Part shown: positions 5,462-47,608 of the stretch, in pieces
Numbering within the stretch: the stretch's first letter is position 1
How the letters are laid out: each line of letters begins with the position of its first letter
Assembly (NCBI GenBank): GCA_017399405.1
Contig: JAFQCT010000017.1
Coordinates: 119,730-183,729, forward strand
Source: Clostridia bacterium
GTDB taxonomy: Bacteria > Bacillota > Clostridia > Oscillospirales > Acutalibacteraceae
Direction of reading: 5' to 3'
DNA: 64,000 bases
Position numbers and translations under genes: made by a program
Notes under the pieces: model-generated
What the model saw: the letters and a program-made list of their open reading frames with translations, nothing else
Databases searched by the model: none
Told to the model about the DNA's origin: nothing

Positions 5462-5485
5462 TTGGCGCAGAAGGAGAGACTCGAA
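5462..5485 (-). repeat. island attachment site, left (24-bp copy of the tRNA-Ser(GCT) 3' end)
   Basis: These 24 bases are identical to 47585-47608. Read on the minus strand they give the end of the T loop, the T-stem 3' arm, the 7-base acceptor arm, the discriminator G and CCA of tRNA-Ser(GCT). The rest of the tRNA is absent here. A direct-repeat tRNA 3' end is the classic trace of tyrosine-recombinase integration. Confidence 0.9.
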
Positions 5486-5580
5486 ATATGATAAAGGGAT
5501 TTCACCAACTTTCACAAAGTCCCACAAAGCCTTATATATCAACGATTTCAGCACTTTGACCTTTCATCAACTTTCACGAA

Positions 5581-5623
5581 AATAAACCGCATTTTACAAA
5601 AATAAACCGCAAATAAACCGCAA
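5581..5623 (+). repeat. ATAAACCGCA repeats, candidate integrase arm sites (left end)
   Basis: The motif ATAAACCGCA occurs at 5582, 5602 and 5613. The last two form a tandem pair with 11-bp period that is identical over 22 bp to a pair at 47495-47516, inside the other island end. Shared short repeats inside both ends fit arm-type binding sites of a tyrosine integrase (inference). Confidence 0.6.
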
Positions 5624-5700
5624 GAATTTAGTTTAAGAGTGTCACAAATCGACAAGAACATACGATTTATATATATTAAGGTTAATTACATCAAATATAA

Positions 5701-5770
5701 TTCAATTTAATCATTTTTGCAAATTTGATTAAATTAAATCGTTGACATTAAATTGAAATGCGTATATAAT
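5701..5770 (+). promoter_or_regulatory. promoter of the fic-hsd operon with nested inverted repeats
   Basis: A consensus promoter has TTGACA at 5742-5747, a 17-base spacer and TATAAT at 5765-5770, about 48 bases before fic. Upstream, AATTTAATCA (about 5705) is mirrored by TGATTAAATT (about 5726). TTCAATTTAAT at 5701 is mirrored by ATTAAATTGAA inside the promoter spacer (5747-5757). Such symmetry over a promoter suggests a repressor site; the winged-helix end of the Fic protein is one candidate binder (inference). Confidence 0.75.
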
Positions 5771-5818
5771 ATTACTTGTAGAATTATAATAACAAAGATG
5801 ATTTAAGGAGATAGTTCT

Positions 5819-6874
5819 ATGAGAAATTACGATTTCAATAACAAGTGGCAAGCATTGTTGACACCTGAAATTGTGTCCTTGCTTTCAAAAATACATGAAT
5901 ATAAAGGCGAACAAAATCTTTTTATCGAAGCAAAAAGCGATTCGCTTACTCAACTTGTAGAAATTGCTAAAATTCAAAGTACAGAGGCGTCAAATAAAAT
6001 TGAAGGTATTTACACCTCTGATGACCGTATAAAAAAACTTGTTACAAATAAGGCAATACCCAAATCTCGACACGAGCAAGAAATTGCGGGGTATCGTGAT
6101 GTGTTAGCAACCATCCACGAAAGCCACGATTATATCCCTGTAAAACCCGCTATTATTTTGCAGTTGCATCGCGATTTGTATAAATTCAGTGGCAAGTCAA
6201 TCGGTGGAACATACAAAAACTCTGATAATGTTATTGCAGAAACGGATGAAAACGGTAATCGTTTTGTTCGATTTCAACCTGTTCCTGCTTGGGAGACAGC
6301 CGAATCAATCAATAACCTTTGCGAAGCATTTGATGATGCGTTGAATAGAAATGAAGTCGACCCATTACTGTTAATCCCTATGTTTATTCTCGATTTTCTT
6401 TGTATACACCCCTTTAATGATGGTAACGGAAGAATGAGCAGACTTTTAACGCTACTCTTACTGTATCGTGCAGGGTATATCGTTGGTAAATATATCAGTA
6501 TTGAAAAAGTCATTGAAAATTCAAAAGAAACCTATTACGAAGCTCTTCAAAGCAGTTCATTAGATTGGCACGAAGAAAAAAATGATTATTCTCATTTTGT
6601 GCAGTATACATTAGGCGTTATATTGTCAGCATATCGCGAATTCTCAACACGAGTTCAGACCTTGACTATGAGCAATATGTCCAAGCCCGATAGAATTCGT
6701 GAAATTATTAAAGAAACTCTTGGTCAGATTACAAAAACAGAGCTTATGGCAAAATGTCCTGATATTAGTCAGGTTACAGTTCAGCGAACACTTAACGATT
6801 TGCTTAAAAACGGCGAAATAATTAAACTTAGTGGTGGCAGATACACATCTTATATTTGGAACGGAGATAAATAA
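5819..6874 (+). CDS. Fic family protein with C-terminal winged helix
   Basis: A 351-residue protein with an N-terminal Fic_N region and a Fic core carrying the complete active-site motif HPFNDGNGR at residues 197-205. Fic enzymes transfer AMP or other nucleotide moieties to proteins. An inhibitory-helix motif SNKIEG at residues 58-63 matches the S/TxxxE-G/N pattern, making it a self-inhibited class II Fic with its own antitoxin helix. The C-terminal 70 residues look like a winged-helix DNA-binding domain. It is the first gene of a type I restriction operon, 2 bases before hsdM. Fic proteins often accompany type I systems, but their role there is not established. The start follows AAGGAG. Confidence 0.88.
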   Translation: MRNYDFNNKWQALLTPEIVSLLSKIHEYKGEQNLFIEAKSDSLTQLVEIAKIQSTEASNKIEGIYTSDDRIKKLVTNKAIPKSRHEQEIAGYRDVLATIHESHDYIPVKPAIILQLHRDLYKFSGKSIGGTYKNSDNVIAETDENGNRFVRFQPVPAWETAESINNLCEAFDDALNRNEVDPLLLIPMFILDFLCIHPFNDGNGRMSRLLTLLLLYRAGYIVGKYISIEKVIENSKETYYEALQSSSLDWHEEKNDYSHFVQYTLGVILSAYREFSTRVQTLTMSNMSKPDRIREIIKETLGQITKTELMAKCPDISQVTVQRTLNDLLKNGEIIKLSGGRYTSYIWNGDK

Positions 6875-6876
6875 TT

Positions 6877-8412
6877 ATGATTACAGGTGAACTTAAAAAT
6901 AGAATCGATAGTTTGTGGGATACTTTCGCAGCAGGTGGGCTTGTAAATCCCCTTGATGTTATAGAGCAAATCACATATCTTATGTTTATTCACGATTTAG
7001 ACGATGCCGATAACCTTCGTGCAAAAGAAAGTGCAATGTTAGGCCTTCCTTATGAAAGCATTTTTGCCGACGAAGTTACAATTGGCGACCGAAAAGTTAA
7101 TGGTAAAAATCTTAAGTGGTCAGTATTCCACGATTATCCGGCAGGGCAGATGTATACCATTATGCAAGAGCAGGTGTTCCCATTTATCAAGAATCTTGAC
7201 GGTAAGAAAAACAGTGCCTATTCAAAATATATGGATGACGCTATTTTCAAGTTGCCAACACCATTGCTCTTGTCAAAAGTAGTTGATGCACTTGACGATA
7301 TCTATGACTTTATGCAGAAGTCAGACGATAAAGATGTCCGTGGCGATGTTTATGAGTATTTGCTCAATAAGATTGCACAGTCAGGTCTTAACGGACAGTT
7401 CCGCACACCTCGTCATATTATCAAAATGATGGTTGAGCTTATGAGTCCTAAGCCAGACGATGTTATCTGCGACCCCGCTTGTGGTACAAGTGGATTTTTG
7501 GTGTCAGCAGGGGAATACCTCAAAGATACATATAAAGAAGAAATCTTCTTCAATAAAGTCAAAAAAGACCACTATATGAATCATATGTTCTTCGGTTACG
7601 ATATGGATAGAACTATGCTTCGTATCGGTGCTATGAATATGATGACACACGGTGTTGAAAGTCCGTTTATTGAATATCGCGACAGTCTTTCAGACCAGAA
7701 TGCCGATAAGGACAAGTATTCACTTATTCTTGCAAACCCACCATTCAAAGGTAGTCTTGATTACGACACCGTTTCTGCCGATTTGCTTAAAGTGTGTAAA
7801 ACAAAGAAAACAGAATTATTGTTCCTTGCATTGTTCTTGCGTATGCTAAAAATCGGTGGCAGATGTGCTTGTATTGTACCTGATGGTGTTCTTTTCGGTT
7901 CATCAACTGCACACAAGGCAATCCGTAAAGAGATTATCGAGAACAACCGACTTGAAGCAGTAATTTCAATGCCTTCAGGCGTGTTTAAGCCATACGCAGG
8001 TGTGTCAACAGCCATTCTTATTTTCACAAAAACAGGCCACGGTGGAACAGACAATGTGTGGTTTTATGATATGAAAGCCGACGGATATTCACTTGACGAT
8101 AAACGCTCACCTATAGCCGAAAATGATATCCCAGATATCATCGCAAGATTCAAGTCTATCAATAATGTAGGGGACGACGACCTCGGCGTCCCGTATGAAG
8201 AATCTCAAAACCCACGCACAGCACAAAGCTTTTTCGTACCAAAAGACGAAATCGTGCAGAACGACTACGACCTTTCAATCAATAAATATAAAAAGACCGA
8301 GTATGTGCCTGTTGAATACCCACCAACAAGCGAAATCCTCGCCGAATTGTTTGAATTAGAAACAAACATAACCAACGGACTAAAAGAATTGGAGAAGATG
8401 TTAGATGAATAA
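6877..8412 (+). CDS. hsdM: type I restriction-modification methyltransferase subunit
   Basis: A 511-residue N6-adenine methyltransferase. An N-terminal helical HsdM domain precedes the catalytic domain with the S-adenosylmethionine motif DPACGTSGFL near residue 200 and the catalytic NPPF motif near 287-290. With HsdS it methylates adenine in a bipartite recognition site, protecting host DNA. Length is normal for the family. The start lies 2 bases after the fic stop, and the end overlaps the next gene by 8 bases, so the operon is tightly packed. Confidence 0.95.
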   Translation: MITGELKNRIDSLWDTFAAGGLVNPLDVIEQITYLMFIHDLDDADNLRAKESAMLGLPYESIFADEVTIGDRKVNGKNLKWSVFHDYPAGQMYTIMQEQVFPFIKNLDGKKNSAYSKYMDDAIFKLPTPLLLSKVVDALDDIYDFMQKSDDKDVRGDVYEYLLNKIAQSGLNGQFRTPRHIIKMMVELMSPKPDDVICDPACGTSGFLVSAGEYLKDTYKEEIFFNKVKKDHYMNHMFFGYDMDRTMLRIGAMNMMTHGVESPFIEYRDSLSDQNADKDKYSLILANPPFKGSLDYDTVSADLLKVCKTKKTELLFLALFLRMLKIGGRCACIVPDGVLFGSSTAHKAIRKEIIENNRLEAVISMPSGVFKPYAGVSTAILIFTKTGHGGTDNVWFYDMKADGYSLDDKRSPIAENDIPDIIARFKSINNVGDDDLGVPYEESQNPRTAQSFFVPKDEIVQNDYDLSINKYKKTEYVPVEYPPTSEILAELFELETNITNGLKELEKMLDE

Positions 8413-9367
8413 AATACATATTGAGTATTTTGATGGTTTACTTACCAATGAAGAGATTGATGATATAACGCAATCATGTAGCAATGAGTATGTTGGGATG
8501 GAATTCCATAAAAAAGAATCGCGCATAATGAATGCTGCACTTGATGAGCTAATTGGTCAATTAATTTTGTATATTCCGCCATCTGAAGTGCTTGCCATTG
8601 CATCAACTACCATTATTCCTGTAGTGTGTGCTTCTGTGAAAAAAATTAGAGAACTTGTAAAAGAAAAAATAGTTAAAAGGGTTACTCCAAATTCAATAGA
8701 AGAAAAAGAACCCAACATTATCATTCAAGCAGGTAATATGAAAATTTTGTTACCTAAAGATGCTTCAGACTGTGATGTCGACAAGTATTTGAGTATGGCA
8801 ATAAAATCTACAGTTGAATATGAACAACCACAAAATACAGAAATAATAGTTAGTGGTGACGATAAAGGTATGCATATAGAAACATTAGAGAAATATGCAT
8901 ATCGCATTATGCAACCGAACATGAAACAACAAAATCGAGAGACCATAGACTATTCTAGACTTGAAGATGCTTTTATGAATGCTCTTATGAAAGTAGAAAA
9001 TGAGAAAGAAAAAAGAGAACAAGAATTTTTAGAAGAAAAGGAAAAAGAAGAAAAAAACACTAATAAGAATAACAAAGTTCGTTCATTTTTTATGCGTTTG
9101 TGCAACTGGGCTATGTATGCTATTGTTTATATTGTTTCTGCTTATTGTTTTTACATAATGTGTCAAGTTGAAACGGATTCAAAAACAGAGATTTTTGTAA
9201 AGATAATGTTTTTATTCGGTTTTGGTGTAATTGCAGTTTTTATGTTTTTATCTCAATTTGAATCTTTTTACGATTCGCCAAAAGAAGTTAGAGAGCATTT
9301 CAATAGTAATATAGGTTTTGCAGCCTTAATTGTAGCTTTAATTGCATTGTTTAAAGGAGTGGGATAA
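8405..9367 (+). CDS. unknown membrane protein inserted between hsdM and hsdS
   Basis: A 320-residue protein not recognised as a family member. Residues 1-185 are soluble, residues 190-225 are a highly charged Glu/Lys stretch likely to form a coiled coil, and three hydrophobic segments follow at about 233-253, 264-283 and 303-318. It overlaps hsdM by 8 bases and shares a TAATG junction with hsdS, so it is translationally coupled to both. Its DNA looks more AT-rich than hsdM. Placement suggests an accessory defence role such as a membrane-acting effector (inference only). Confidence 0.7.
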   Translation: MNKIHIEYFDGLLTNEEIDDITQSCSNEYVGMEFHKKESRIMNAALDELIGQLILYIPPSEVLAIASTTIIPVVCASVKKIRELVKEKIVKRVTPNSIEEKEPNIIIQAGNMKILLPKDASDCDVDKYLSMAIKSTVEYEQPQNTEIIVSGDDKGMHIETLEKYAYRIMQPNMKQQNRETIDYSRLEDAFMNALMKVENEKEKREQEFLEEKEKEEKNTNKNNKVRSFFMRLCNWAMYAIVYIVSAYCFYIMCQVETDSKTEIFVKIMFLFGFGVIAVFMFLSQFESFYDSPKEVREHFNSNIGFAALIVALIALFKGVG

Positions 9368-10497
9368 TGGCAAGATTAGGAGATATTGCAACATACATAA
9401 ACGGCTATGCTTTTAAGCCGTCTGATTGGGCTGATACTGGTGTTCCAATTATTCGCATACAAGATTTAACAGGTAATTCTTACCAAACAAATAAGTATAA
9501 AGGCACATATGATAAGAAATATGAGGTTGTTGATGGAGATATTTTAATTTCTTGGTCAGCAAGTTTAGGCGTTTATGTTTGGAAAGGTGAAAAAGCATTA
9601 TTAAATCAACATATATTCAAAGTTGTTTTTGATAGGACTGAAATTGATAAAGATTTTTTTGTGCATCAAGTTAGAGCTGTTTTGCAGAATGCAACTTCTG
9701 AAGCTCATGGGGCAACAATGAAACATCTAACTAAACCAGTTTTTGACTCATTGCCATTTTATTTGCCTTCAATGGAAGAACAGAAAAACATATCTCAAAA
9801 ATTAAATAGTGTTTCTATGTTGATAGAAACCAAAAAATTGCAACTTGAAAAACTTGATGAACTCGTCAAAGCCCGATTTGTCGAACTCTTTGGTGATATA
9901 AAAACAGGTGGTTACAAATTTGAAACTCGTAAATTAGGCAAGGTAGCGGATGTTGGTTCAAGTCATAGAGTATTCACAACGGAGTTTGTTGATAAAGGTA
10001 TTCCTTTTTATAGGGGAACAGAGATTGGCGAATTAGCAATTGGGAAAAAACCAGAAAATCCATATCGCATTTCTGAGGAACATTATGATAGATTAGCGAG
10101 CGATGACACAAAACCCCAAATTGGAGATTTGCTTATGCCATCTATTTGCAATAAAGGACAGGTGTGGATGGTTGATACAGAAGAACCCTTTTACTATAAA
10201 GACGGTCGAGTGCTTCGCATTTCGCCAAACAGAAAACTGTTTAATTGTAAATATCTTGAGCAATTTATGAGAGAAAAAACATTGGCTGAGTACCCCAAAC
10301 TGGGTTCTGGTTCAACTTTTGCGGAATTCAAGATTTTCTTGTTAAAAGATATTGATGTTCTTATTCCACCAATTGAACTTCAAAATGAGTTTGCAGACTT
10401 CGTCAAAGAAGTCGACAAATCAAAATTTGAAGTTCAACAAAGTCTCAAAAAACTCGAAACCCTAAAAAAATCTTTAATGCAAAAATATTTCGGATGA
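9367..10497 (+). CDS. hsdS: type I restriction specificity subunit
   Basis: A 376-residue HsdS with two target-recognition domains (about residues 1-150 and 185-345). They are separated by a conserved helical spacer (containing LEKLDELVKARFVELFGD) and closed by a second helical repeat at the end (LKKLETLKKSLMQKYF). Each domain reads half of the bipartite DNA site. The first recognition domain opens directly at the N-terminus. No second hsdS, inverted repeat or invertase is nearby, so phase-variable shuffling is not indicated. Confidence 0.93.
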   Translation: MARLGDIATYINGYAFKPSDWADTGVPIIRIQDLTGNSYQTNKYKGTYDKKYEVVDGDILISWSASLGVYVWKGEKALLNQHIFKVVFDRTEIDKDFFVHQVRAVLQNATSEAHGATMKHLTKPVFDSLPFYLPSMEEQKNISQKLNSVSMLIETKKLQLEKLDELVKARFVELFGDIKTGGYKFETRKLGKVADVGSSHRVFTTEFVDKGIPFYRGTEIGELAIGKKPENPYRISEEHYDRLASDDTKPQIGDLLMPSICNKGQVWMVDTEEPFYYKDGRVLRISPNRKLFNCKYLEQFMREKTLAEYPKLGSGSTFAEFKIFLLKDIDVLIPPIELQNEFADFVKEVDKSKFEVQQSLKKLETLKKSLMQKYFG

Positions 10498-10511
10498 GGT
10501 GATGTAATAAA

Positions 10512-11246
10512 ATGAGTAAACATGAAGACTTAAAAGCAGAAATAAATGAGCTTGTGTGTAACGGTCAAAAATTATTTGATGCAATTACCGCTAACGCTAA
10601 AGGAGAAGCTCAAGATTTGAGTTTTTTCATCTCTAATTATGAAAAATGGTATTCAAAAGCACTTCCTATTATTAAGCAGTTGTTGCCAGATAGAGTGGAC
10701 GATTTTGTCCTGTTGTATAGAAATGAAAAAAGAAAAAAATTAGATGTTTCAACTTATACTATATCTGACGCTTTGAGATGTGTCAGCAATAGTTACAATC
10801 ACTACAGTCCAACTTCTGCTCGTCTTTGTTTTTTAAGACAAGTTAATATGATACAAAGTTGTCTCGAAACTTTTGATAGCAAAATTTTTGATATACAAAC
10901 AATTCTACAAGCAGACATATTTGATTCTGAAATAGAATCCGCAAAGCACTTGTTAAAAATGGGCTTTTTGCGTGCTGCTGGTGCAATTTGTGGTGTTATT
11001 ATTGAAAAACATTTTGCCGGAGTATGTGCTAACCATAGCATTAAACTCGCTAAAAAGAATCCCACAATTGCTGACTATAACGATGCATTAAAGGACAATG
11101 CTTATGATACAGTTGAGTGGAGACGAATTCAACGATTAGGTGATATTCGTAATCTTTGCGACCACAACAAAGACAGAGAACCAACAAAAGATGAAGTTGA
11201 AGAGTTAATTGCAGGAAGTGAAAAAATAATCAAAACTATTTTTTAG
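10512..11246 (+). CDS. HEPN-like protein in the type I operon
   Basis: A 244-residue, mostly helical soluble protein. The C-terminal part (about 135-244) resembles HEPN/DUF4145-like helical bundles and contains RNLCDH at residues 213-218, matching the RX4-6H motif of HEPN ribonucleases. Many HEPN proteins act as RNA-cleaving toxins in abortive infection. It sits between hsdS and an AbiH-like gene, 14 bases after the hsdS stop, with GAGGTGAT upstream of the ATG. The family assignment rests on the motif and the fold impression; activity is inferred. Confidence 0.6.
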   Translation: MSKHEDLKAEINELVCNGQKLFDAITANAKGEAQDLSFFISNYEKWYSKALPIIKQLLPDRVDDFVLLYRNEKRKKLDVSTYTISDALRCVSNSYNHYSPTSARLCFLRQVNMIQSCLETFDSKIFDIQTILQADIFDSEIESAKHLLKMGFLRAAGAICGVIIEKHFAGVCANHSIKLAKKNPTIADYNDALKDNAYDTVEWRRIQRLGDIRNLCDHNKDREPTKDEVEELIAGSEKIIKTIF

Positions 11247-11269
11247 TTTTTTGGATGAGGTGAAAACAG

Positions 11270-12379
11270 TTGAAAGTCTTAATGCTAGGAAATGGCTTTG
11301 ACCTATATCATAATCTTCTTACTCATTATAATGATTTTATGACAATCGCTGAGTATCTAAGTAAAAAATACAATATAATATTTTATGAAGAATTTAATGA
11401 AATAAATATTTATTCAGAACTTGATGACTTGTCGAAAACTAATAAAGTAATCCGAGAAAAACTGTTAACATATGAAGATGCTTATAAAGAAACAAAAATA
11501 AACATAGACGAATATGTCAGATTTTTAGATAAACTTCATTCAAACTGTTGGTTTAAGTACTTTATAGATGTAAAGAATAGAAATGGATGGGTTGCTTTAG
11601 AAAATCAAGTAGCAGAAGTATTAAGGGAATTTAGACAAAGTAACCCTAGAGGCATAGATAGGTTTTTAGATGCAATAAAAGAAAAGTATAATTTTAACGA
11701 TGCATTTTTCAAACATATTAAGAATTATTCTTTTGCTGGAGAAGAATATGATAATTACATTTTTGAGGAATACAACGACTTTATTGAAATATTAAAACTA
11801 TACTTAAAAATATTTGTTGATAACGCATTGCCACAGATTTCAAATCATTATGTATTTAACAACAATTATTTGAAAAACAATGATTTTGTTTTAACTTTTA
11901 ATTACACAAATACTTATGAAGAGCTATACGATACAGAATCATATATTATTCATATTCACGGAAGACTTGATGAGGCAATAGTTTTGGGCGTTAATTCAGA
12001 TGAATACGATAATGCTGGTATTAATGATAATAGATTTATAAAATATAAAAAATACTATCAAAGAATTACTAAACGAACTCTTGACGCTTTGGTTACATTA
12101 TTTACTGATGTAAATTCAACAACGGAACACAATAGTCTCTTTATTATAGGGCATTCTTTAGATGTATCAGATAAAGATATTATAACTGTTATATTTGGTA
12201 TGTTTGATATTATAAAAATATATTTTCATGATGATAGTGCTTTAGATAGTTATGTTAAAAATTTAAAACTTATTTTTGGTGCAGAAGAATTAAGTAAAAT
12301 GACATTTTCGCAAAAGATAATTTTCTGTAAACTTCTACCAAATAAGTATAAGAAGGTGAATGCTAATGACCAACTTTGA
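11270..12379 (+). CDS. AbiH-like abortive infection protein
   Basis: A 369-residue protein with the features of the AbiH family: an N-terminal nucleotide-binding-like motif LGNGFDLYHNL at residues 6-16, a central FNYTNTYEELY followed by IHIHGRLDE, and a C-terminal GHSLDVSDKDII. AbiH was described as a lactococcal phage-abortive system; its mechanism is not known to me. TTG start with GAGGTG 7 bases upstream. The end overlaps the start of hsdR by 20 bases, so it is built into the restriction operon, which suggests a layered defence. Its DNA is visibly more AT-rich than hsdM and hsdR, suggesting separate acquisition. Confidence 0.82.
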   Translation: MKVLMLGNGFDLYHNLLTHYNDFMTIAEYLSKKYNIIFYEEFNEINIYSELDDLSKTNKVIREKLLTYEDAYKETKINIDEYVRFLDKLHSNCWFKYFIDVKNRNGWVALENQVAEVLREFRQSNPRGIDRFLDAIKEKYNFNDAFFKHIKNYSFAGEEYDNYIFEEYNDFIEILKLYLKIFVDNALPQISNHYVFNNNYLKNNDFVLTFNYTNTYEELYDTESYIIHIHGRLDEAIVLGVNSDEYDNAGINDNRFIKYKKYYQRITKRTLDALVTLFTDVNSTTEHNSLFIIGHSLDVSDKDIITVIFGMFDIIKIYFHDDSALDSYVKNLKLIFGAEELSKMTFSQKIIFCKLLPNKYKKVNANDQL

Positions 12380-15300
12380 TTTCTTGAAAAATGATGAGCG
12401 ATTTGAAAACTTTGCTGATATTGCTATCTCTGCCGAGAAAATCTTACATATTGATGCGGCTTCAAGTGTGCTAAATTGTCGCAGGGCTATGGAATTTGCT
12501 GTCAAATGGATGTATTCCGTTGACGGTGCTCTTGCTATGCCTTGGCAGGACAACTTGAAAGCCCTTATGGATAGCGAAGACTTCCGTGAAGTAGTTGGTA
12601 AAGATATATGGGTAAGAATGAAACTCATTCGTACTGTTGGCAACAACGCGGCTCATAATCCAAAGAAAATCACCGATGAACAGGCAGTTCTCTGCCTTGA
12701 AAACCTCTTTATATTCCTTGATTTCGTGGCATATTGCTATGGCGATATAAATAAATACACTTACAACGAATTCAACCGTGATTTACTTTCACAACATACC
12801 GAAAAACTTTTTGACCATTCAGCAGAAATCAATTTTGAGCAGTTAATCGAAGAAAATAAATCACTCAAAGAAGAACTTACAACTCGTCGCGCCGAACAAC
12901 AACAGACTTATGTCCCAAAACCTCTTGACATTTCTGAATACACAACCCGAAAAGTGTATATCGACACAATGCTTCAGGATGCCGGTTGGACCGAGGGCAA
13001 AGACTGGCTCAACGAGGTTGAACTCTTTGGAATGCCTAATAAATCCGAGGTGGGTTATGCCGATTATGTACTCTATGGTGATGATGGTAGAGCTTTGGCA
13101 GTAATTGAAGCAAAAAAGACCTGTGTTGATGTGGCAGTTGCTCGTCAACAAGCAAAACTCTATGCAGATTTGTTTGAGAAAAAACACGGTCGTCGTCCCG
13201 TAATCTTCCTTACAAACGGATTTGATACAAGAATTATCGATAATCTTTATCCAGAGAGAAAATGTGCTACAATCTATTCAAAACGCGACCTTGAAAAGCT
13301 CTTTAATTTGCAAACAATGCGTACAAGCTTAAAGCATGTTATGGTAAACAGAGAAATCGCAGGTCGATATTACCAAGAGGGTGCAATCAAGGCTGTTTGT
13401 GATAGCTTTGACCGTAAAAATCGCCGTAAAGCGTTGCTTGTTATGGCAACAGGTTCAGGTAAAACAAGAACGGTTATGGCACTTTGTGATGTTCTTTTAC
13501 AACACGGTTGGGTTAAAAACATTCTTTTCCTTGCTGACCGTACCTCACTTGTAACTCAGGCAAAGCGTAGTTTTGTAAATCTTCTTCCGGACTTGTCTGT
13601 TACAAATCTTTGTGAAGATAAAGAAAACTACAACGCTCATTGTGTGTTCTCAACTTATCAGACTATGATGAACTGCATTGATTCTGTAAAAGACGATAAC
13701 GGTAAACTTTTCACTTGCGGTCATTTCGATTTGGTAATCTGTGACGAGGCACACCGTTCAATTTATAACAAATACCGTGATATTTTTACCTATTTCGATG
13801 CACCGCTTGTTGGTCTTACTGCAACACCAAAAGACGAAATCGACAAGAATACTTATGAAATATTTGAACTTGAAAACGGTTGCCCAACTTATGGTTATGA
13901 ACTTGCACAAGCAGTAAAAGACGGCTATCTTGTTGATTATATGTCCGTTGAGACAAAACTTAAATTTATCGAGCAGGGTATCGTTTACGACGAACTTTCC
14001 GACGAAGAAAAAGCCGAATATGAAGATACTTTCAAAGATGAAAACGGTGAACTCCCTGAAAAGATTGATTCAACTGCACTTAATCAATGGCTTTTCAATG
14101 AGGATACAATTAAAGAAGTTCTTAATATCTTAATGACAAATGGCTTGAAGATTGAATATGGCTCAAAAATCGGCAAGACAATTATCTTTGCAAAAAATCA
14201 TAACCACGCCGAAAAGATTTTTGAGATATTCAATAAGGAATACCCACATCTTAAGGGTTATGCAATGGTAATTGATAACTATCTTAATTATGCCCAAAGT
14301 GCAATTGATGAGTTTTCAAGTCCCAAAAAGCTACCACAAATCGCAATATCAGTTGATATGCTTGACACGGGTATTGATGTGCCTGAAGTATTGAATCTCG
14401 TATTCTTCAAAAAGGTTATGAGTAAGGCAAAATTCTGGCAGATGATTGGTCGTGGTACTCGTCTTTGTGAAAATCTTCTTGATGGTCAAGACAAAGAAAA
14501 ATTTTACATTTTCGATTTTTGTGGTAACTTTGAATTTTTCCGTATGAGTCCTGGCAAACCAAGTGTCAATCAACTTGCAGTTCAAGGTAGAATCTTTAAT
14601 CTTAAAGCACAGATTGCTTATAAATTGCAAGATTTAGATTATCAAACCCCCGACCTTATCGAATTCCGCAAAATCCTTGTTGAAGATATGGTGCGAAAGG
14701 TTTGCGAACTCAATAAAGAAAACTTTGCAGTTCGTCAACATCTTAAATATGTTGAGTTATATTCAAATGCTGATAATTACAAAACTCTTACATACGAAGA
14801 TACTTTGATAATTGCAGAAGAACTTGCACCATTGATTATTCCTGATAAAGATGAAGCAACCGCAATGAGCTTTGATGCACTTATGTATGGCATTGAACTT
14901 GCATATTTGGTAGGTAAAAAATATTCTCGCGCTCGTAGTGAACTCTTCAAAAAAGTTTCTGCTATCGCAAGTGTAGCGAATATTCCTGAAATTATGGTGC
15001 AGTCAGAGCTTATCAATAAAATTCTTCATACCGATTATGTTGAAACTGCAGGAATTAACGAGTTTGAACATATTCGCGAAAACTTGAGAAATCTTTTGAA
15101 GTACATTCCGTATAATCCAATACCGGAAGTCAACATAAATTTCAATGATGAAATTCTCTCAATGGATTGGAACGAATCGGAACTTGAAAATGACGATTTG
15201 GAAAACTACAAGGCAAAAGCAGAGTTCTATATTCGTCAGCATCAAGATAATATTGCAATTGCAAAACTCAAATCTAATCAACCTCTCACATCAGAAGATA

Positions 15301-17253: not shown

Positions 17254-17418
17254 ATGAGTAAAAATTGTAATGATGATATTCTTTCAATCTCAGAAAAAAA
17301 CGATTTTCTTGCCGATGCAGAATTAAAAATAAGTCAAGCGGAAGAGGAACTCGCAAATAATAAAGGTCTTGATGCAAATGAGTCATTAAAAAGACTTAAG
17401 GAAAAATACAATTTATAA
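17254..17418 (+). CDS. small protein, 54 residues
   Basis: A short gene with ATG at 17254, preceded by GAGGGGAT, and stop at 17416-17418. It encodes 54 residues rich in Glu, Lys, Asn and Asp, with an amphipathic helical second half. It starts 11 bases after the upstream stop and ends 13 bases before the next start, each with its own ribosome binding site, so it fits the operon as a real gene. No family is recognised; size and charge resemble small antitoxins or element regulators, but there is no specific evidence. Confidence 0.55.
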   Translation: MSKNCNDDILSISEKNDFLADAELKISQAEEELANNKGLDANESLKRLKEKYNL

Positions 17419-39719: not shown

Positions 39720-40252
39720 AAAAAGAACGAACAGATTCAATTCTAATTCTTGTTTCGGTTTTGAGTTTGTGTTTTTTTTCATTTAGTTTCTTACTTATGT
39801 CAATTGAAAATGAGAACACATCTGAGAAACTTTCGATTTGTTCATTAATAGCTGGAATAATATTTTGGATATCTATGCTAATACTTATAGTTGTTCAGAT
39901 TGTTTTGAGTTTACGCATGAAGAAATGGATGAAAAAACACAAAATCAAACAGTTTAGAGATGCATCCAAAATTGGTATTATATCGTTTTTTAAAAACGCT
40001 TATGCGATTGTAGCTGATGTGCTTATGGTAATTAGTTTAACTGTTTTAGTTGTTTTGTTAGTAGTTACACAAGGGACAGGATACATTTGCTTTATAGCCA
40101 TCGCAATATTTGTATTTTCATTTAGTATGCATTGTGTATTAAATGGTAAAGTGTTTTATTATGTTATAAACAAAGATGAGTTGCTACAAATTGTAGAAGA
40201 AAGAGCAAACTCATCACTTTTAGAAAGGGCGGATAAAAATGGTAAAAGTTAA
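39716..40252 (+). CDS. hypothetical four-helix membrane protein
   Basis: A 178-residue protein with about four hydrophobic segments (near 7-28, 37-65, 95-119 and 123-143) and short polar ends. Family not recognised. GTG start overlapping the previous stop (GTGA) and ending 14 bases inside the next gene, so it is translationally coupled in the Tad/signalling operon. Confidence 0.65.
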   Translation: MKKERTDSILILVSVLSLCFFSFSFLLMSIENENTSEKLSICSLIAGIIFWISMLILIVVQIVLSLRMKKWMKKHKIKQFRDASKIGIISFFKNAYAIVADVLMVISLTVLVVLLVVTQGTGYICFIAIAIFVFSFSMHCVLNGKVFYYVINKDELLQIVEERANSSLLERADKNGKS

Positions 40253-43200
40253 AGATTCATTACCATCAAAGTTATGGACACTATTTTTAGTCGTTTCAAT
40301 TTTGATTGGTATGATTCCTACTGGAGTTATTGGTGCTTTGGCGGCGCAAGATGTTTTGGGAACAATTGAAACACTTGTTTCAGGCGGCACAATTGACCAA
40401 AACACAGTTACTTTTAGTGGAACAGAGCTTGCTTGGTCACCTAAAGACGATTCAATCGGCAGAAATGTTGATGGTTGGTGGATAGGTATTAAGGTTACTG
40501 CTCCTGAAGGGATGACTGAGGAAGAATTGAAGTTGTCAAAATACATTTCAAATTCTGAAAAGTTATTCTGGGATGTCAAGGATTCGGTTGAAGGTGCAGA
40601 AGCACATTATATCGAACTTTGGGATGTTGTTAACGAAGCTTATTTAAATGATGCAATCGTCAATAACAAAATGCTTGAATACAAATATCAGTTTGACTGG
40701 GATGCAGATGGCGTTTATGAGCAGCCAATTACAATGAAGGTTGACCCTAAAACCGTAGTTCTCAAAAAGGATAATGCTATAGTGTATCCTTCAACTAACG
40801 ATGCAAAAGCATCTGTTGAACTGATTACTGGTGGTGTTACAATTAATGGTAATCAGAGTAATGTTGTTGTGGCAGAGCATACTTCAACAACAGAACTTGT
40901 TTGGATTGAAGCTGACACATCAGCAGGCAGAAATTCTGATGGATGGTGGGTTGGCGTAAATGTTATTGCTCCTTTCGGTGCTGATTTAACAAAGGTCAAT
41001 TATCAGAACAAGACTTCTGATGGTTGGGGTGCTGCAAAGGCATTTAATACATATAAAGATACAGAAAACAGTATCCAACTCTGGGGATTGGTAAACGAAA
41101 CGTATCTTAATAGCGCTGTAGAGAACAATAAGAATGTAAATTACCAGTGGAGATTTGACTGGGATGGCGACGGAGTTTATGAGCAGCTTGTTCATATTAA
41201 AGTTGACCCTTCAAAGGTTGTTCTCAAAGCTAAAAATGGTGAGCAGGTATATCCATATCTTGCTACTGTAAGCGGATTAACAGGTGGTACTGTTTCAGGT
41301 AATACTTCAAATCTTGAACTTAAGATTGAAGAAACTTCTCTTGACTGGTCTCCCGCAGATACCTCAATCGGCAGAAATTATGACGGTTGGTGGGTTGGCA
41401 TGAAGGTTACTGCTCCTGATGGTTATACAGCATCACAACTTGAAAATGCTACATATAAGAGAAGAGTTACAAGTGCTGGGGGATCAGCATGGTCTGAATA
41501 TTCAACTGTTGATTTCTGGACTGTTAAGGATTCAGTAGACGATGCTTCTGCACATTATGTTGAGATTTGGATGGTAATTAACCCTTCTTTGATTTCTACA
41601 TACAAGACAAATGGTAACAATATCAAAACAGAGTGCGTATTTGACTGGGATAACGATGGAGTTTACGAACAGACAATCACAATGAGCGTTGTTCCAAGTG
41701 AAAAAATCGTACTTAATAAGGTTGAACAAACTGGTTTTGAGTTCAGTGACAAGAATCCTGCTGATAAGTGGGTTGGTGAGTCTTACACAAATACAGCCAA
41801 TGGCGGACAGGGTATAGGTGAGATTACTTATTCAATTGTATCTGGTACAGATGTGGCAGATATTGACACTGCAACAGGTAAGCTTACCTTCAAGCAACCT
41901 GGTACAGTAACAGTTAAGGCAACGAAGGCGGCCGATGATATTTATTCAGAGGTAAGTGCTGAATATACAGTAAAGGCAATTAAGTATCCTCAGGTTAACT
42001 TTAAATTTGAAAATTCAAACTCAAATATTACAGTTGAATTTAAAGATGGTACATACACTAACGGCGCTATTGGCGGAAACGGAAATGGAGCGGTTGTATA
42101 TGAGTTAACATCAGGTGATGGAACTGTTGCTACAATTGATGCTACAACAGGTGATATTACTTTCATCAAGGCTGGTGAGGTAACAGTTAAGGCAACAAAG
42201 GCGGCAGATGCAAATTATAATGAAGCAACTGTAACTTATACTCTCACAATTGAAAAATCACAGCAAGAGCCATTAACTATTGTTGATGCCCCTGCAAATA
42301 TTACATATAGCCCAAGTGTACAGAATGTATTTTCTGTAAGTGGTGGAAGCGGCAATGGTGTGATTACATATTCTATCGTTAGCGGTCAGGAATATGCTTC
42401 AATTGATAGTGAAACAGGTGCTATCACAACTATCAAAGCAGGTGGTTCATTTACCGTTCAGGTGGATAAAACTGGTGACGATGGTTATGAAGCTGCAACT
42501 CCGATAACAACTACAATTTATGTTGATTATGCTAATCAGACCGGTTTCGGCTTTGATGTGTCGAGTCCTGATAATATTACATTTGATGTTGCTAATAACA
42601 CATTTGTAAATAAGGCAACTGGTGGTGAAAGCACAGGCGAAATTACTTATGCCTTTGTAGCGCCAACAACTGTAGCGGAAATTACAGATGCTAAATCAGA
42701 AGTAATCACAATTCTCACAGCAGGTACATTTACTGTGATTGCAACAAAAGCTGGTGACGACTGCTATAATGCGGTAACAGCTGAATACACCTTGACAGTT
42801 GACCCTGCTACACCAGTATTTAATGTAAGCAATGCGGAACTGGTTTATGGTACTAAAGAATATACAATTAGTCCTGACACAATTCTTGGTGGTTCAGGTA
42901 AATATGTTTATTCAATTGTAGGCACTAATAAAATTGGTGCAACTGTCGATGAAAATGGCAAAGTAATCTTTAGCGATTCGGATGCTAAGGTTGGTACAAT
43001 TACGGTTAATGTTAAGAAGGAAGCTGACGCTCAATATGTTGAGTTAGAAAAAGAAATAACAATTTCTGTTGCTTATCTTACAACAACAGAAAAACCAACA
43101 ATTTCAGGCGAACAGAAAGATGCAACATATGGCTGGTATTCAGACGATATCATAATTACTGCTCCTTCTGGTTATATGATTAGCTATGATAATGAACTTT

Positions 43201-46200
43201 CAACTGATGATTGGGCGGAAACTGTCATATATAGCACAGAAGATACAGTAGGTAAAAAGAATGTTTACCTTAAAAACGACCAGGGTATAACTGATGTAAT
43301 TGAGGTTACAGGTCTTCTTCTTGATAAGACAGCACCAGATAGTCTTGCTATTTCATATACAACTAGTAGATGGGAAAGATTTTTAGAGGTAGTAACATTT
43401 GGCTACTATGAATCTGATACTGTTATTGTAACATTAACAGCAAAAGACAATGGTTCAGGTATTAATAACTTTGTTTTCAATTATGGTGATGGCGAAGCAA
43501 TACCAACAGTCGATGCTGACGGAATAGCAACATATTCATTTGAAGCTTTAAACGATTACAGAGATAAGATTTCATTTACGGCTTACGATAAAGCAGGTAA
43601 TGCGACAAAACTTGCAGATGATAAAGTTCTTGTAATAGACAAAACAGCTCCTACTTTAACTGTTAGTTATGAATATCCAAGTGTATATAAAGAGGAAAAT
43701 GATATTCTATATACAAATGGAGATACAACAATCCATTTCGAGATAGAAGAAAACAACTTTGATTTATCACTTCTTGAAGATAATGATAAACCTAAATTTG
43801 TTGTAAATAATTCAGATGTTATATTGAATTGGGTTGAAGATGCAACCGAAGGTGTTTGGGAAGCAACTTATACTTTTGTTCCATCAAACGATTATGTAAT
43901 TAGTTTTAATTATGAAGATTTATCAAAAAATACACCTGTAAGTTATGAAAAAGAAATCAGAGTTGATGATATTAAGCCGGAAGTTGAGGTAATGTATACT
44001 GATGGTACAGAAACTCAAATAATTGAAAATGTTAAGTATTATAAGTCGACACAAACTGTTGAAATTGTAGTAACAGAGCATAATTTTAGAGCAGAAAAGG
44101 TGAACTTAAAAGTAACAGCTGATGGTGCTGATATTTCATCAAAAAAATATGCTGAGTATGTAAAGAATCCTGATAACTGGACTACAAATGGTGATGTTCA
44201 TACATTAAATACAGCAGGAATGATATTTGACCTTGATGCAAAATACAGTTTCGATATTGATTGTCATGATTTTATTGAAAACTCTTCAATTGATTATATT
44301 GTAGATGAATTCTATGTTGACCATAATACTCCAACAGATATCACAATCTCTTATTCAACACCTCTTAGCAAGATTATTCTTGACAAAATTCTTGAAACAA
44401 TTAGTTTCGGCTTCTACAATGCTGAATTTGAAGTAACACTTACAGCAAAAGATGTAACATCAGGTGTAGATTACTTTGAGTGGTCATACACAAAAGATGG
44501 TGAAAGTGATAAACATATAGCAAGTTATGGTGAAAAAATTACAACCGATGCTATAACATATGATGGAGACAAAGCAACAGCAGTATTTAAAATTCCTGCA
44601 AATGCAAGAGGCTATATTACTGCAAAGGCCGTTGATAGAGCTGGCAATAGCGATTATGTAGTTGACAATAACATTGTTAATGTTGCAGATGATATTGCTC
44701 CAGAAATTGAAGTTACATATACTCCGGTTAATAATGATGCGTCAATTCATTATATTGATGTAAATCGAAAAGACACTAACGATGTTAACAATGCTGAAAT
44801 TCTCTATTTTGATGGCGATGTAACAGCAAAAGTTAAAATAGATGAAGCAAACTTCTTTGAAGGTGAGACTTCAACCGATGGAATTATTCATCAAGTAGGC
44901 ATTAAACTTATTAAAACAGATGAAAATGGTAATGTAACAGAGATTGAATATCTTTCAGAAAATTCTGTTCAAAGATATCCAGAAGCAACTCCAGAATATA
45001 TATCATGGAGTCAGTCGGGAGATGAGCACTGGTTTGAGATTCCTTACGATGAAGAAGTTGATTATCAATTAGTAGTTGAATATACGGACTATTCAGAAAA
45101 TAAAGCAAATATTACATCTAATGATGGTTCTGCATCTGTTGAAAAATATACTTCAAAGATTATTACTGTTGATAAAACAACTCCAATTGTAGAAGTAGAG
45201 TATAAAAATACTGATGTTAAATCTACATATGGAGAAAGAGAATACTTTACTGAAAATCAGGTAGCTGTAATTACTGTAACAGAACACAACTTCCGAGCTG
45301 ATGATTTTGTTGCTGAAGTAGTGGCAAAATATAGCGATGATACTGATGTTGTTGTGGATGATTTTAAGGCATTTTTGTCTAATGAAGCTAACTGGACAAA
45401 AGACGAAAATGTATATACTGCAACTGTCAATTACACAGAAGATGCAAATTATACCTTTGACTTTGCATTTAAAGACCTTGCTTTGAATGATGCTACAGAT
45501 TATGAGACAGATTACTTTACAGTTGACAAAGAAAATCCTCATGCTCCTACAGTAACCTATAAAGGTGACATTAAAACAACTATTATTGACAAGGTGCTCA
45601 ATGTAATTACTTTCGGCTATTATGATGCTAAGGTAACAGTTGTAGTTACATCTGATGATGATGTATCAGGTATTGACCATTTTGTATATAGTTACATTAA
45701 AAATGAAGGTGTTAGTGATGTTAACTCTGGTCTTGAAAATGTAACTATAACCAGTGAAGATGTTGTTCAAGAGGGTAAAACATTCAAGGCAAGTTTTGAA
45801 ATTCCAAAAGATGTATTAAAAGACACAAATCAGTTTAATGGTACTGTTAAGTTTACAGCTTTTGACCGTGCAACAAGAAGTAATGAGCATAAGGAAACAG
45901 CAAATATCGTTGTTGATAATATTGCACCAAGTGCGACTATTACATATAATGAGCCTATTAAAAATGCAAACGGAATTTCTTATTATGCAGGTGATATTAA
46001 CGCTACAATCGTTATAACTGAAGCAAACTTCTTCAGTGAAGATGCAGTTGTAAAAGTTACAAAAGATGATGTGGAATATCCTGTAAAGGTTAATTGGGTT
46101 GATGATAGTGCTGATGTTCATACAGGTACATTCACATTAACTGAAAATGGTGACTATATAGTGACTGTTGAATATATTGACCGTTCTTCAAATGAATTAG

Positions 46201-47387
46201 AAAAATATACTTCTAACAGATTAACACTAGATACTGTAGCACCTACAATCTCACTTTCTAACGTGAAAAATAATTCAGCAAACAAAGATGATGTATATGG
46301 ATTCACTATAAGTGCAAAAGACATAAATCTTGATTCATCTTCATTCAAGCCAACACTAACAGCTGTGGTTATGAATGAAAACGGAACATTCTCTACTAAA
46401 ACAGTTTCTCTTGGGAATATGATTACTGTAGAAAGTGGAAAAGAATATTCGTTTAATGTGCAAAATTTAGAAAATGATGCTATTTATAGTTTTGTAGCAA
46501 CTGTAAAAGATATGTCGGGTAATGAATATTCAAAGATTATTCTTGCAGATGGCAGAGAATATGATAAGGTTAACTTCTCGATTAATAGAAATGGTTCAAC
46601 TTTTGGTATTGGTGAATACACAGAAAAAGTTGTCAATGACTACTATGTACAGAACATAACAGAAAATATTGTTGTGTTTGAGACTAATGCAGATAATCTT
46701 TCTGAATATAAAGTAACTCTTAACGGAAAAGAACTTACAGAAGGCACTGACTATACAGTTACTACAACTGGTGGAAATGGCTCATGGATGAAATATACAT
46801 ATTCTGTAAACAAAGCACTTTTTGCAAATGAAGGTGAATACAGTCTTGTAGTTTCTTCAAAAGACAAAGCACAAAATGATGCGTTTAGTGATGTTAAGAA
46901 TGCAAAGATTAACTTTGTTGTTGACCGTACAGCACCAATTATAACAGTAACTGGTATGGCTAAAGATGGTAGATATCAGACAGATGTTCAAACTGTAACG
47001 ATTATTCCAACTGATGACGGCGGTGCTTTGAATTCGATTGTTGTACGTTTCGTTGATAAAGATGGTAATCAAATTAAAGAGATAATTAACCTTTCAGGTG
47101 AAGCTCTTGAAAAAGCACTTTCTGATGGAAATGGTAGAATTGAATTTGAAATTGCTGAAGGTTTGTATCAAAATGTTCAAATTATTTGTAATGACTATGC
47201 AGTTGATGAAAATGGCAATACAAATACTTATAACGAAACATTTACAAATATTTCAGTATCATCAAGTGCAATAATGATTTTCTGGGCAAATAAGCCATTA
47301 CGTTGGGGTTCAATTATAGCAGTAGTTATTCTTGCTCTTAGCATTATCTTGATTGCCACTAAAAAGAAAAACAAGAAATCAAAATAA
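40239..47387 (+). CDS. giant Ig-like repeat surface protein, probable adhesin
   Basis: A 2382-residue protein. A signal peptide covers about 1-36. Three tandem N-terminal modules follow, each marked by GRNxDGWWxGxxVxAPxG and FDWDxDGVYEQ (about 36-190, 190-335, 335-495). Next are cadherin/Big-like beta modules (YSIVSG, TATGKLTF, VTVKATKAAD) and many Ig-like modules with DKTAP and AKDxxSGxxxF signatures. A C-terminal transmembrane helix spans about 2352-2374 and ends in a Lys/Asn tail. No LPXTG sorting motif is seen, so it is likely membrane-anchored. Acidic, Thr-rich, long-stalk architecture suggests adhesion. It is the last gene of the Tad operon and of the island. Confidence 0.87.
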   Translation: MVKVKDSLPSKLWTLFLVVSILIGMIPTGVIGALAAQDVLGTIETLVSGGTIDQNTVTFSGTELAWSPKDDSIGRNVDGWWIGIKVTAPEGMTEEELKLSKYISNSEKLFWDVKDSVEGAEAHYIELWDVVNEAYLNDAIVNNKMLEYKYQFDWDADGVYEQPITMKVDPKTVVLKKDNAIVYPSTNDAKASVELITGGVTINGNQSNVVVAEHTSTTELVWIEADTSAGRNSDGWWVGVNVIAPFGADLTKVNYQNKTSDGWGAAKAFNTYKDTENSIQLWGLVNETYLNSAVENNKNVNYQWRFDWDGDGVYEQLVHIKVDPSKVVLKAKNGEQVYPYLATVSGLTGGTVSGNTSNLELKIEETSLDWSPADTSIGRNYDGWWVGMKVTAPDGYTASQLENATYKRRVTSAGGSAWSEYSTVDFWTVKDSVDDASAHYVEIWMVINPSLISTYKTNGNNIKTECVFDWDNDGVYEQTITMSVVPSEKIVLNKVEQTGFEFSDKNPADKWVGESYTNTANGGQGIGEITYSIVSGTDVADIDTATGKLTFKQPGTVTVKATKAADDIYSEVSAEYTVKAIKYPQVNFKFENSNSNITVEFKDGTYTNGAIGGNGNGAVVYELTSGDGTVATIDATTGDITFIKAGEVTVKATKAADANYNEATVTYTLTIEKSQQEPLTIVDAPANITYSPSVQNVFSVSGGSGNGVITYSIVSGQEYASIDSETGAITTIKAGGSFTVQVDKTGDDGYEAATPITTTIYVDYANQTGFGFDVSSPDNITFDVANNTFVNKATGGESTGEITYAFVAPTTVAEITDAKSEVITILTAGTFTVIATKAGDDCYNAVTAEYTLTVDPATPVFNVSNAELVYGTKEYTISPDTILGGSGKYVYSIVGTNKIGATVDENGKVIFSDSDAKVGTITVNVKKEADAQYVELEKEITISVAYLTTTEKPTISGEQKDATYGWYSDDIIITAPSGYMISYDNELSTDDWAETVIYSTEDTVGKKNVYLKNDQGITDVIEVTGLLLDKTAPDSLAISYTTSRWERFLEVVTFGYYESDTVIVTLTAKDNGSGINNFVFNYGDGEAIPTVDADGIATYSFEALNDYRDKISFTAYDKAGNATKLADDKVLVIDKTAPTLTVSYEYPSVYKEENDILYTNGDTTIHFEIEENNFDLSLLEDNDKPKFVVNNSDVILNWVEDATEGVWEATYTFVPSNDYVISFNYEDLSKNTPVSYEKEIRVDDIKPEVEVMYTDGTETQIIENVKYYKSTQTVEIVVTEHNFRAEKVNLKVTADGADISSKKYAEYVKNPDNWTTNGDVHTLNTAGMIFDLDAKYSFDIDCHDFIENSSIDYIVDEFYVDHNTPTDITISYSTPLSKIILDKILETISFGFYNAEFEVTLTAKDVTSGVDYFEWSYTKDGESDKHIASYGEKITTDAITYDGDKATAVFKIPANARGYITAKAVDRAGNSDYVVDNNIVNVADDIAPEIEVTYTPVNNDASIHYIDVNRKDTNDVNNAEILYFDGDVTAKVKIDEANFFEGETSTDGIIHQVGIKLIKTDENGNVTEIEYLSENSVQRYPEATPEYISWSQSGDEHWFEIPYDEEVDYQLVVEYTDYSENKANITSNDGSASVEKYTSKIITVDKTTPIVEVEYKNTDVKSTYGEREYFTENQVAVITVTEHNFRADDFVAEVVAKYSDDTDVVVDDFKAFLSNEANWTKDENVYTATVNYTEDANYTFDFAFKDLALNDATDYETDYFTVDKENPHAPTVTYKGDIKTTIIDKVLNVITFGYYDAKVTVVVTSDDDVSGIDHFVYSYIKNEGVSDVNSGLENVTITSEDVVQEGKTFKASFEIPKDVLKDTNQFNGTVKFTAFDRATRSNEHKETANIVVDNIAPSATITYNEPIKNANGISYYAGDINATIVITEANFFSEDAVVKVTKDDVEYPVKVNWVDDSADVHTGTFTLTENGDYIVTVEYIDRSSNELEKYTSNRLTLDTVAPTISLSNVKNNSANKDDVYGFTISAKDINLDSSSFKPTLTAVVMNENGTFSTKTVSLGNMITVESGKEYSFNVQNLENDAIYSFVATVKDMSGNEYSKIILADGREYDKVNFSINRNGSTFGIGEYTEKVVNDYYVQNITENIVVFETNADNLSEYKVTLNGKELTEGTDYTVTTTGGNGSWMKYTYSVNKALFANEGEYSLVVSSKDKAQNDAFSDVKNAKINFVVDRTAPIITVTGMAKDGRYQTDVQTVTIIPTDDGGALNSIVVRFVDKDGNQIKEIINLSGEALEKALSDGNGRIEFEIAEGLYQNVQIICNDYAVDENGNTNTYNETFTNISVSSSAIMIFWANKPLRWGSIIAVVILALSIILIATKKKNKKSK

Positions 47388-47429
47388 AATTGGCTTGCAC
47401 TGCAAAAGTGCATATAAAGTCAAGTAATA

Positions 47430-47469
47430 AAAATAGGTAATTGCCTCTATGCAATTACCTATTTTTCAT
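47430..47469 (+). terminator. terminator of the Tad-adhesin operon
   Basis: A perfect 15-bp stem (47430-47444 with 47451-47465) with a 6-base loop; T-rich on one side and A-rich on the other, so it may work in both directions. Confidence 0.92.
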
Positions 47470-47494
47470 TGTTAATAGATATTAATACTAAAAG

Positions 47495-47516
47495 ATAAAC
47501 CGCAAATAAACCGCAA
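47495..47516 (+). repeat. ATAAACCGCA tandem pair, candidate integrase arm sites (right end)
   Basis: Two copies 11 bp apart, identical over 22 bp and in the same orientation as the pair at 5602-5623, and 69 bp from the right attachment site. Confidence 0.6.
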
Positions 47517-47528
47517 ACTGGAATTAGG

Positions 47529-47584
47529 CAAAAAAATAAAACCGCTGAAAACCTTGATAAATAAGGATTTTTCAACGATTTTAT
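47529..47584 (-). terminator. island-supplied terminator for the tRNA-Ser genes
   Basis: Arms about 47536-47555 and 47563-47584 pair well only as minus-strand RNA, where two mismatches become G-U wobbles, with small bulges. A run of seven T follows on the minus strand (47529-47536). It lies directly after the tRNA 3' end and replaces the displaced terminator at 5430-5459. Confidence 0.7.
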
Positions 47585-47608
47585 TTGGCGCAGAAGGAGA
47601 GACTCGAA
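47585..47608 (-). repeat. island attachment site, right (within tRNA-Ser(GCT))
   Basis: Identical over 24 bp to 5462-5485. Here it forms the 3' end of the intact tRNA gene, so integration restored a functional tRNA. Confidence 0.9.

Follow-up and report, generated by a model that had tools for sequence, protein, structure and literature searches.

Tad pili on mobile elements

Under the concept of the Widespread Colonization Island, the tad locus is treated as a genomic island. Here, we analyse a 64,000-nucleotide stretch of a Clostridia bacterium of the Acutalibacteraceae (contig JAFQCT010000017.1, positions 119,730 to 183,729; hereafter the window), in which a Tad pilus block and a defence operon lie together on a 42-kb island at a tRNA-Ser(GCT) gene (positions 5462–47608 of the window). 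Both this island and the Widespread Colonization Island are Tad genomic islands, but here attachment (att) sites set the limits and a defence operon is included. The evidence supports well an integrative island that carries a defence operon as well as a Tad block of foreign origin. In its fuller form, our reading is that of a tRNA-targeted integrative element, of probable integrative and conjugative element (ICE) descent, with the two blocks as cargo, and we consider it highly probable.

Current views are not overturned by this reading, because the mobility of Tad loci is already accepted. According to the original prediction, Tad loci are generally regarded as chromosomal. This view is outdated: in the available text of PMC6668835, Tad exceeds the other filament systems under comparison in both transfer and plasmid frequencies, and that of PMC3316620 places Tad on a 54-kb mobile element. 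The type IVc/Tad loci described in the former resemble the one on the island in being single, horizontally acquired loci with TadZABC, Flp and TadV. Their transfer was inferred from phylogeny and plasmid frequency, whereas on the island one can see a specific integrative vehicle, complete with its two att ends. The 54-kb element, from Propionibacterium acnes type I and with highly similar loci in Clostridium leptum, also combines a Tad cluster with other accessory genes, and horizontal sharing has brought it to members of different phyla (P. acnes, 'P. humerusii' and C. leptum). In contrast to the island, it is apparently extrachromosomal, encodes a ParA-family protein and had no insertion boundaries found; no tRNA site or integrase is named in the accessible sections of PMC3316620. 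For Bulleidia, a horizontally acquired tad locus is reported in the available part of PMC12786226. As far as its accessible text goes, the open-licence literature yielded no tRNA-integrated element with defined att sites that carries Tad.

Island limits and attachment sites

The original prediction was built on a 24-bp tRNA 3' end repeated exactly and in direct orientation 42 kb apart, and intact only at the right. Repeat searches, ARAGORN and Rfam bear this out (Table 1). The window holds no third copy of this core. The closest further match inside the island has 8 mismatches in 24, and matches near the integrase gene (int) have at least 10. At the left copy, ARAGORN and Rfam agree that there is no tRNA; at the right, tRNA-Ser(TGA) adjoins the intact tRNA-Ser(GCT) (47741–47829, minus strand; ARAGORN). 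The tyrosine integrase expected between the repeats is present. The excisionase-like gene (Xis) falls below the curated cut-off, but a homologue lies beside a related integrase in the same genome.

A second exact repeat, 22 bp long and overlooked by the original prediction, lies just inside both ends (5602–5623 and 47495–47516). It is built of two 11-bp units, and a perfect 11-bp tandem pair, as found at each island end, was reached by none of 300 shuffles. Because this tandem motif resembles the repeats beside related integrases, it ties both ends to one recombinase. Altogether, an encoded tyrosine integrase, a tRNA 3'-end repeat at both limits, an uninterrupted site in relatives and putative arm-type sites at both ends are present. 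The G+C content of the island (33.5%, compared to 37.0% and 35.8% in the flanks) is at most suggestive.

In the history that we propose, the integrase, aided by the small Xis, would have used the 24-bp core to recombine with tRNA-Ser(GCT) at its 3' end. Integration would have rebuilt the tRNA at the right (attR), and pushed the old 3' end and its terminator to the left (attL). Any excision of the element is likewise conjectural.

The target site in congeners

The tRNA pair was searched in 40 genomes of the genus, the host's own included, and 39 matched. We examined 29 congener loci and set four of them aside, two because they end too near the tRNA and two because they hold no complete tRNA-Ser(GCT), which left 25 testable. 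Island-free relatives had been predicted to carry one contiguous tRNA-Ser followed by the terminator, and this holds for part of them. In 11 of the 25 loci, the tRNA is directly followed by a segment like the one displaced in the window (above all of 100 shuffles), with a likeness that is strong in G004 and G005, and weak in G006, G025 and G026. The clearest uninterrupted site is that of G004. Here, an alignment with the two window flanks, fused at a single core, spans all 472 positions and the junction at 92.2% identity, and the hairpin at 5430–5459 belongs to the tRNA's own downstream segment. The right-flank genes of the window, from 48319 onward, follow in order.

Several observations weigh against our reading. 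At the target site, the other 14 of the 25 loci have unlike sequence after the tRNA. Five congeners (G005, G031, G021, G017 and G011) hold extra copies of the tRNA 3' end approximately 170–360 bp downstream of the tRNA, and no island. None of the genes in the left flank of the window (87–5330) was found in G004 within 18 kb on that side; in G031 (L051), this sugar-acid type operon is instead located across the tRNA-Ser pair, as is its last gene in G013 (L019). For the element as a whole no close relative was found, and the best integrase outside its own genome, among 394 genomes of the order, is 49% identical (the integrase of G049 reaches 51% over residues 136–386). The integrase is located mid-element, unlike in most loci of its kind examined. 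Finally, the promoter and operators discussed below for the Tad operon are consensus matches, in an AT-rich region with 12 promoter-like sites versus a shuffle mean of 10.3.

The five congeners with extra copies, exact in G005 and with a mismatch in G021, indicate that the 3' end can be duplicated without this island. A repeat in strains lacking the intervening DNA had been named beforehand as a result that would refute the island, and in part, as short 3'-end duplications, this is what was found. One could thus read the 24-bp repeat as an unrelated duplication of a tRNA 3' end, with the Tad genes as ordinary chromosomal DNA between the copies. We regard this as very improbable. A plain duplication is an insufficient explanation here, because arm-type repeats of the integrase kind match exactly inside both ends. 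The left-flank genes found across the tRNA pair in G031 and G013 indicate rearrangement around the tRNA locus, and together with the extra copies they mark the tRNA-Ser site as a hotspot with local rearrangement.

In the same five genomes (L029/G005, L015/G031, L016/G021, L018/G017 and L033/G011), the copies belong to units of approximately 175 bp, just after the intact tRNA, in most of which the 3' end is followed by a terminator. Three tRNA-Ser 3' ends stand in a row in G005. The outermost is followed by sequence resembling the inner attL of the window, and is probably the end of another element.

Foreign origin of the Tad block

As predicted, a whole Tad pilus, adhesin and phospho-signalling cluster (23316–47387; Pfam and colinearity) shares the island with a restriction and abortive-infection type operon (5819–15662). 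TadZ, TadA, TadB, TadC, Flp, TadE/G and TadV make up a complete monoderm Tad (type IVc) pilus set in one locus, with TadB and the second TadE identified by colinear homology alone. In the defence operon, the type I restriction-modification set of HsdM, HsdS and HsdR is accompanied by Fic, HEPN-like and AbiH genes.

At E ≤ 1e-40, TadA was found in three of 60 relatives, the host included. The other two are G001 (approximately 74–75% identical) and G013 (31%, in an assembly with 9% contamination). It was not found at this threshold in 34 of the 36 congeners, several of the 34 being incomplete assemblies, and G001 is the sole congener with a clear Tad locus. A much closer TadA, 90% identical to that of the window, is encoded on a contig from a metagenome-assembled genome labelled Lachnospiraceae (L073). 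Other proteins of this locus are less similar (kinase 75%, phosphatase 75%, TadZ 58%, TadB 59% and TadC 51%), and 16 of the 17 Tad-block genes are colinear; a homologue of the leucine-rich repeat protein is missing there. The housekeeping protein RpoB gives the opposite picture: between the host and G001 its identity is 84%, but between the host and the L073 genome 63%, compared to 74% and 90% for TadA.

Phylogenetic analysis leads to the same conflict. In the RpoB tree (9 rows), the host pairs with G001, and the L073 genome with Blautia. In the TadA tree (40 of 82 extracted sequences), the window falls into the starred set with L073 to L076, with G001 outside, and in the TadZABC tree (17 rows) it pairs with L073 (97/98). 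A clade of the window and G001, as taxonomy would predict, was rejected by the AU test for both TadA (p 0.00096) and TadZABC (p 0.00077). Because of this conflict between the RpoB and Tad trees, we consider the Tad block to be horizontally acquired, and the trees place its origin outside the genus. The conflict, as well as the lack of TadA matches in most congeners, also argues against ordinary chromosomal DNA between two duplicated tRNA ends. The divergence between the window and L073 indicates that L073 itself was not a recent donor.

That the L073 contig is a binning error from the host was ruled out, its upstream flank being 93–94% identical to two congeners of the L073 genome. A further Tad locus, on a 1.4-Mb contig labelled Cellulomonadaceae, an actinobacterium (L082), encodes a TadA 67% identical to that of the window, and has the genes from Flp to FHA on the opposite strand. 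It represents either a cross-phylum transfer or a mislabelled assembly.

Integrase relatives and a proposed entry of the Tad block

Beside a tRNA-Lys in the same genome (G000:C2:160001-174967, L050), there is an element with an integrase 56–57% identical to that of the window and homologues of Xis (65%), u3 (36%) and DUF6100 (33%). Between the stop of this integrase and the tRNA-Lys, an 11-bp repeat pair agrees with the window arms at 18 of 22 positions (counted by hand). Both elements have the DUF6100, u3, Xis and Int families and the type of arm repeat in common. In contrast to the island, the integrase of the tRNA-Lys element abuts the tRNA, the stretch examined holds no Tad genes, and the contig ends inside the element. 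On its cargo side, an open frame of 1889 codons runs to the contig end.

In eleven of 18 integrase loci, a tandem pair of 11-bp units that agree at 9 to 11 of 11 positions lies at most 200 bp from the integrase stop, each reached by 0–9 of 300 shuffles, and nine of the 18 have a tRNA at most 700 bp away. The seven loci without such a pair are L062, L063, L068, L059, L009, L073 and L007, the contig of which ends; in L062 and L063, similar tandem pairs are visible by eye nearer the tRNA. In the window, the first 200 bp downstream of int lack such a pair; the best score there, 7 of 11 positions, was equalled by 214 of 300 shuffles. The window has its pair at attR instead, 25.5 kb from int. Since int directly abuts the arms in 11 of the 18 loci, we propose that a pre-existing element would have gained the Tad block between int and attR.

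The same arrangement could be the product of two elements accreted at the same tRNA, one with the integrase and defence genes (5.5–22.3 kb) and one with the Tad genes (22.3–47.5 kb), the latter having lost its own integrase and the inner att site. Both halves would have come separately, and may now move jointly only by accident. This scenario fits an integrase gene that is placed in the middle of the island and points to the tRNA, the orientation seen when int abuts attR in other elements, and so does it fit the repeated duplication of the tRNA 3' end within the genus. A terminator-like inverted repeat can also be seen by eye after int and u4 (approximately 22260–22300), although the computed scan listed none. 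However, neither an internal core copy nor a tandem pair after int is found, and the arm repeats of the two outer ends are identical. With no degenerate internal core, there is no visible sign of a second element with limits of its own. Two accreted elements are unlikely, and we favor a single element that took up the Tad block.

Probable ICE descent and transmissibility

Pfam scans of 33 island proteins, with two short open reading frames (17254–17418 and 22027–22212) outside these scans, recognized no relaxase, coupling protein, type IV secretion system or phage structural family. For nine island proteins compared with PHROGs, matches were limited to integrase, regulator/helix-turn-helix and unknown-function phrogs. 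Because no relaxase, type IV secretion or phage structural gene was seen, the island is probably not self-transmissible.

A link to ICEs is suggested by the genes for u3 and DUF6100. By resemblance, this pair is located among conjugation-type genes in seven of nine stretches, and Pfam confirmed it in both stretches tested. ICE-like clusters of the same order (L205–L210 and L212) carry VirB4/VirD4-type, DUF5697, DUF6100 and u3 genes, and share with the island the DUF6100-u3 pair, 26–36% identical to that of the window. They differ from the island, in which no conjugation genes were recognized and where Xis and Int come next after the pair, in place of a coupling protein. The island is thus probably an element of ICE descent, but non-autonomous. 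Having kept the ICE-type pair and no recognized transfer genes, it would need the conjugation machinery of another element, transduction or transformation for its movement.

A fixed relic, which integrated once and no longer excises or transfers, would be compatible with this origin. The missing transfer and phage structural genes and an excisionase match below the cut-off are in line with it, yet the integrase frame is intact, without internal stops, and both cores and arms are identical, without decay. We consider such a fixation possible, though doubtful.

In both ICE-like and island-like loci, the DUF6100 family adjoins u3. For the DUF6100 protein of the island, the fold may be that of the Holliday-junction resolvase RusA: D157, D159, N160 and D168 are invariant in 10 sequences and presumably match the RusA motif, which would make it a candidate resolvase. 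For u3, an N-terminal winged helix is predicted, the fold being assigned to a small part of the protein only.

Gene content and probable control of the pilus

Divergent from the Tad operon, the island encodes a small XRE-type repressor. Two 19-bp operator-like repeats are located between its gene and TadZ, and the second occupies the 17-bp spacer of a promoter-like site (TTGACA/TAAAAT; 23189–23217, 11 of 12 matching). Repressor and repeats over the Tad promoter would probably keep the pilus off until derepressed.

Upstream of the Tad operon of L073, two near-identical 21-bp inverted repeats (approximately 7326–7346 and 8749–8769) enclose a gene for a tyrosine recombinase. The same arrangement is found in a congener of the L073 genome (G433 C12, L190), upstream of a different FHA-PP2C-kinase-adhesin operon. 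It is a possible phase-variation switch for adhesion operons.

Table 1. Features of the island and its ends (window positions)
Feature	Position	Strand	Evidence
Former downstream segment of tRNA-Ser(GCT) with its terminator, displaced	5371–5461	-	Contiguous with tRNA 3' end in G004
attL core, 24-bp copy of tRNA-Ser(GCT) 3' end	5462–5485	+	Exact repeat of 47585–47608
Left-end arm-type repeats AAATAAACCGCA at 5580, 5600, 5611	5580–5623	+	Exact 22-bp match to right end
Fic-domain protein	5819–6874	+	PF02661 E 4e-15; PADLOC SoFic E 3e-39
HsdM, type I methyltransferase	6877–8412	+	Pfam, PADLOC
Uncharacterized protein in defence operon	8405–9367	+	No Pfam match; weak PADLOC RTasSLATT E 6.5e-4
HsdS, type I specificity subunit	9367–10497	+	Pfam, PADLOC
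HEPN-like protein	10512–11246	+	PF05168 E 0.0033, 18 bits vs cut-off 22; no PADLOC match
AbiH-family protein	11270–12379	+	PF14253 E 6.5e-36
HsdR, type I restriction subunit	12360–15662	+	Pfam, PADLOC
Two uncharacterized proteins	16384–17242	+	No Pfam match; second (16781–17242) phrog_2717 E 1e-14, phage family of unknown function
Helix-turn-helix protein, weakly excisionase-like	17432–17839	+	TIGR01764 E 4e-4, below cut-off
DUF6100 protein	18234–18908	+	
u3, ICE-associated protein	19242–20426	+	Homologues in conjugation-type gene clusters
Xis-like protein	20498–20722	+	TIGR01764 E 0.007, below cut-off; homologue 65% identical beside C2 integrase
Tyrosine integrase, 392 aa	20820–21998	+	PF00589 (Phage_integrase) E 4.5e-24; phrog_1 E 6e-73
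Membrane protein, weak M50-like match	22377–22886	+	PF02163 E 0.006, below cut-off
XRE-type repressor, 70 aa, divergent from Tad operon	22913–23125	-	PF01381 E 1e-12
Two 19-bp operator-like repeats (23170–23188, 23195–23213)	23170–23217	+	Consensus matches only
TadZ (start more likely GTG 23382, from comparison with L073)	23316–24443	+	PF21194 E 2e-43
TadA ATPase	24469–25707	+	PF00437 E 4e-61
TadB platform protein	25664–26581	+	Homology (59%) and order with L073; no Pfam T2SSF match
TadC platform protein	26592–27467	+	PF00482 E 2e-14
Flp pilin	27516–27737	+	PF16982 E 1e-13
TadE pseudopilin	27808–28416	+	PF07811
TadG-like protein	28429–31608	+	PF13400, PF18960
BspA-type leucine-rich repeat protein	31616–32539	+	PF13306 E 4e-63
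Second TadE-like protein	32536–33198	+	Colinear homologue in L073; no Pfam match
TadV prepilin peptidase	33165–33881	+	PF01478 E 5e-11
WG-repeat protein	33883–35199	+	PF14903 E 1e-38
DUF6382/FHA-domain protein	35210–36688	+	Pfam
PP2C-type phosphatase	36728–37495	+	Pfam
Ser/Thr protein kinase	37508–39208	+	PF00069 E 2e-49
m1, m2: two small uncharacterized proteins, probably membrane proteins	39210–40252	+	Colinear in L073; no Pfam-based function
Putative surface adhesin, 2382 aa, C-terminal hydrophobic anchor	40239–47387	+	Sequence; same-place homologues in L073, G001; no Pfam match
Right-end arm-type tandem repeat	47495–47516	+	Exact 22-bp match to left end
attR core inside intact tRNA	47585–47608	+	Exact 24-bp repeat
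tRNA-Ser(GCT), intact	47586–47676	-	ARAGORN; Rfam agrees

Implications

Tad pili are colonization factors, and in the accessible parts of the earlier reports their frequent transfer was deduced from phylogeny, from plasmids and from a single element of extrachromosomal appearance. In the window, the vehicle itself is visible: both attachment sites, the integrase, the empty site and the phylogenetic conflict point to one 42-kb element. Since the closest Tad set found belongs to a bacterium only distantly related to the host, the island has the appearance of a mobile element by which a whole adhesion organelle reached a new host. A single event could install a complete pilus, kinase genes and an adhesin, plus restriction and abortive-infection genes. 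Moreover, a visible vehicle makes excision, the host range of the attachment site and the repressor control directly testable.

More tentatively, the Tad-FHA-PP2C-kinase-adhesin genes could form a self-contained, repressor-controlled module, taken up between int and attR by tRNA-targeted elements of Clostridia-like gut bacteria, and carried between families together with anti-phage defence. If this somewhat doubtful idea is true, a single site-specific integration would equip the host with an adhesion organelle and with protection from phages, and the element-borne XRE repressor would hold back expression of the pilus.

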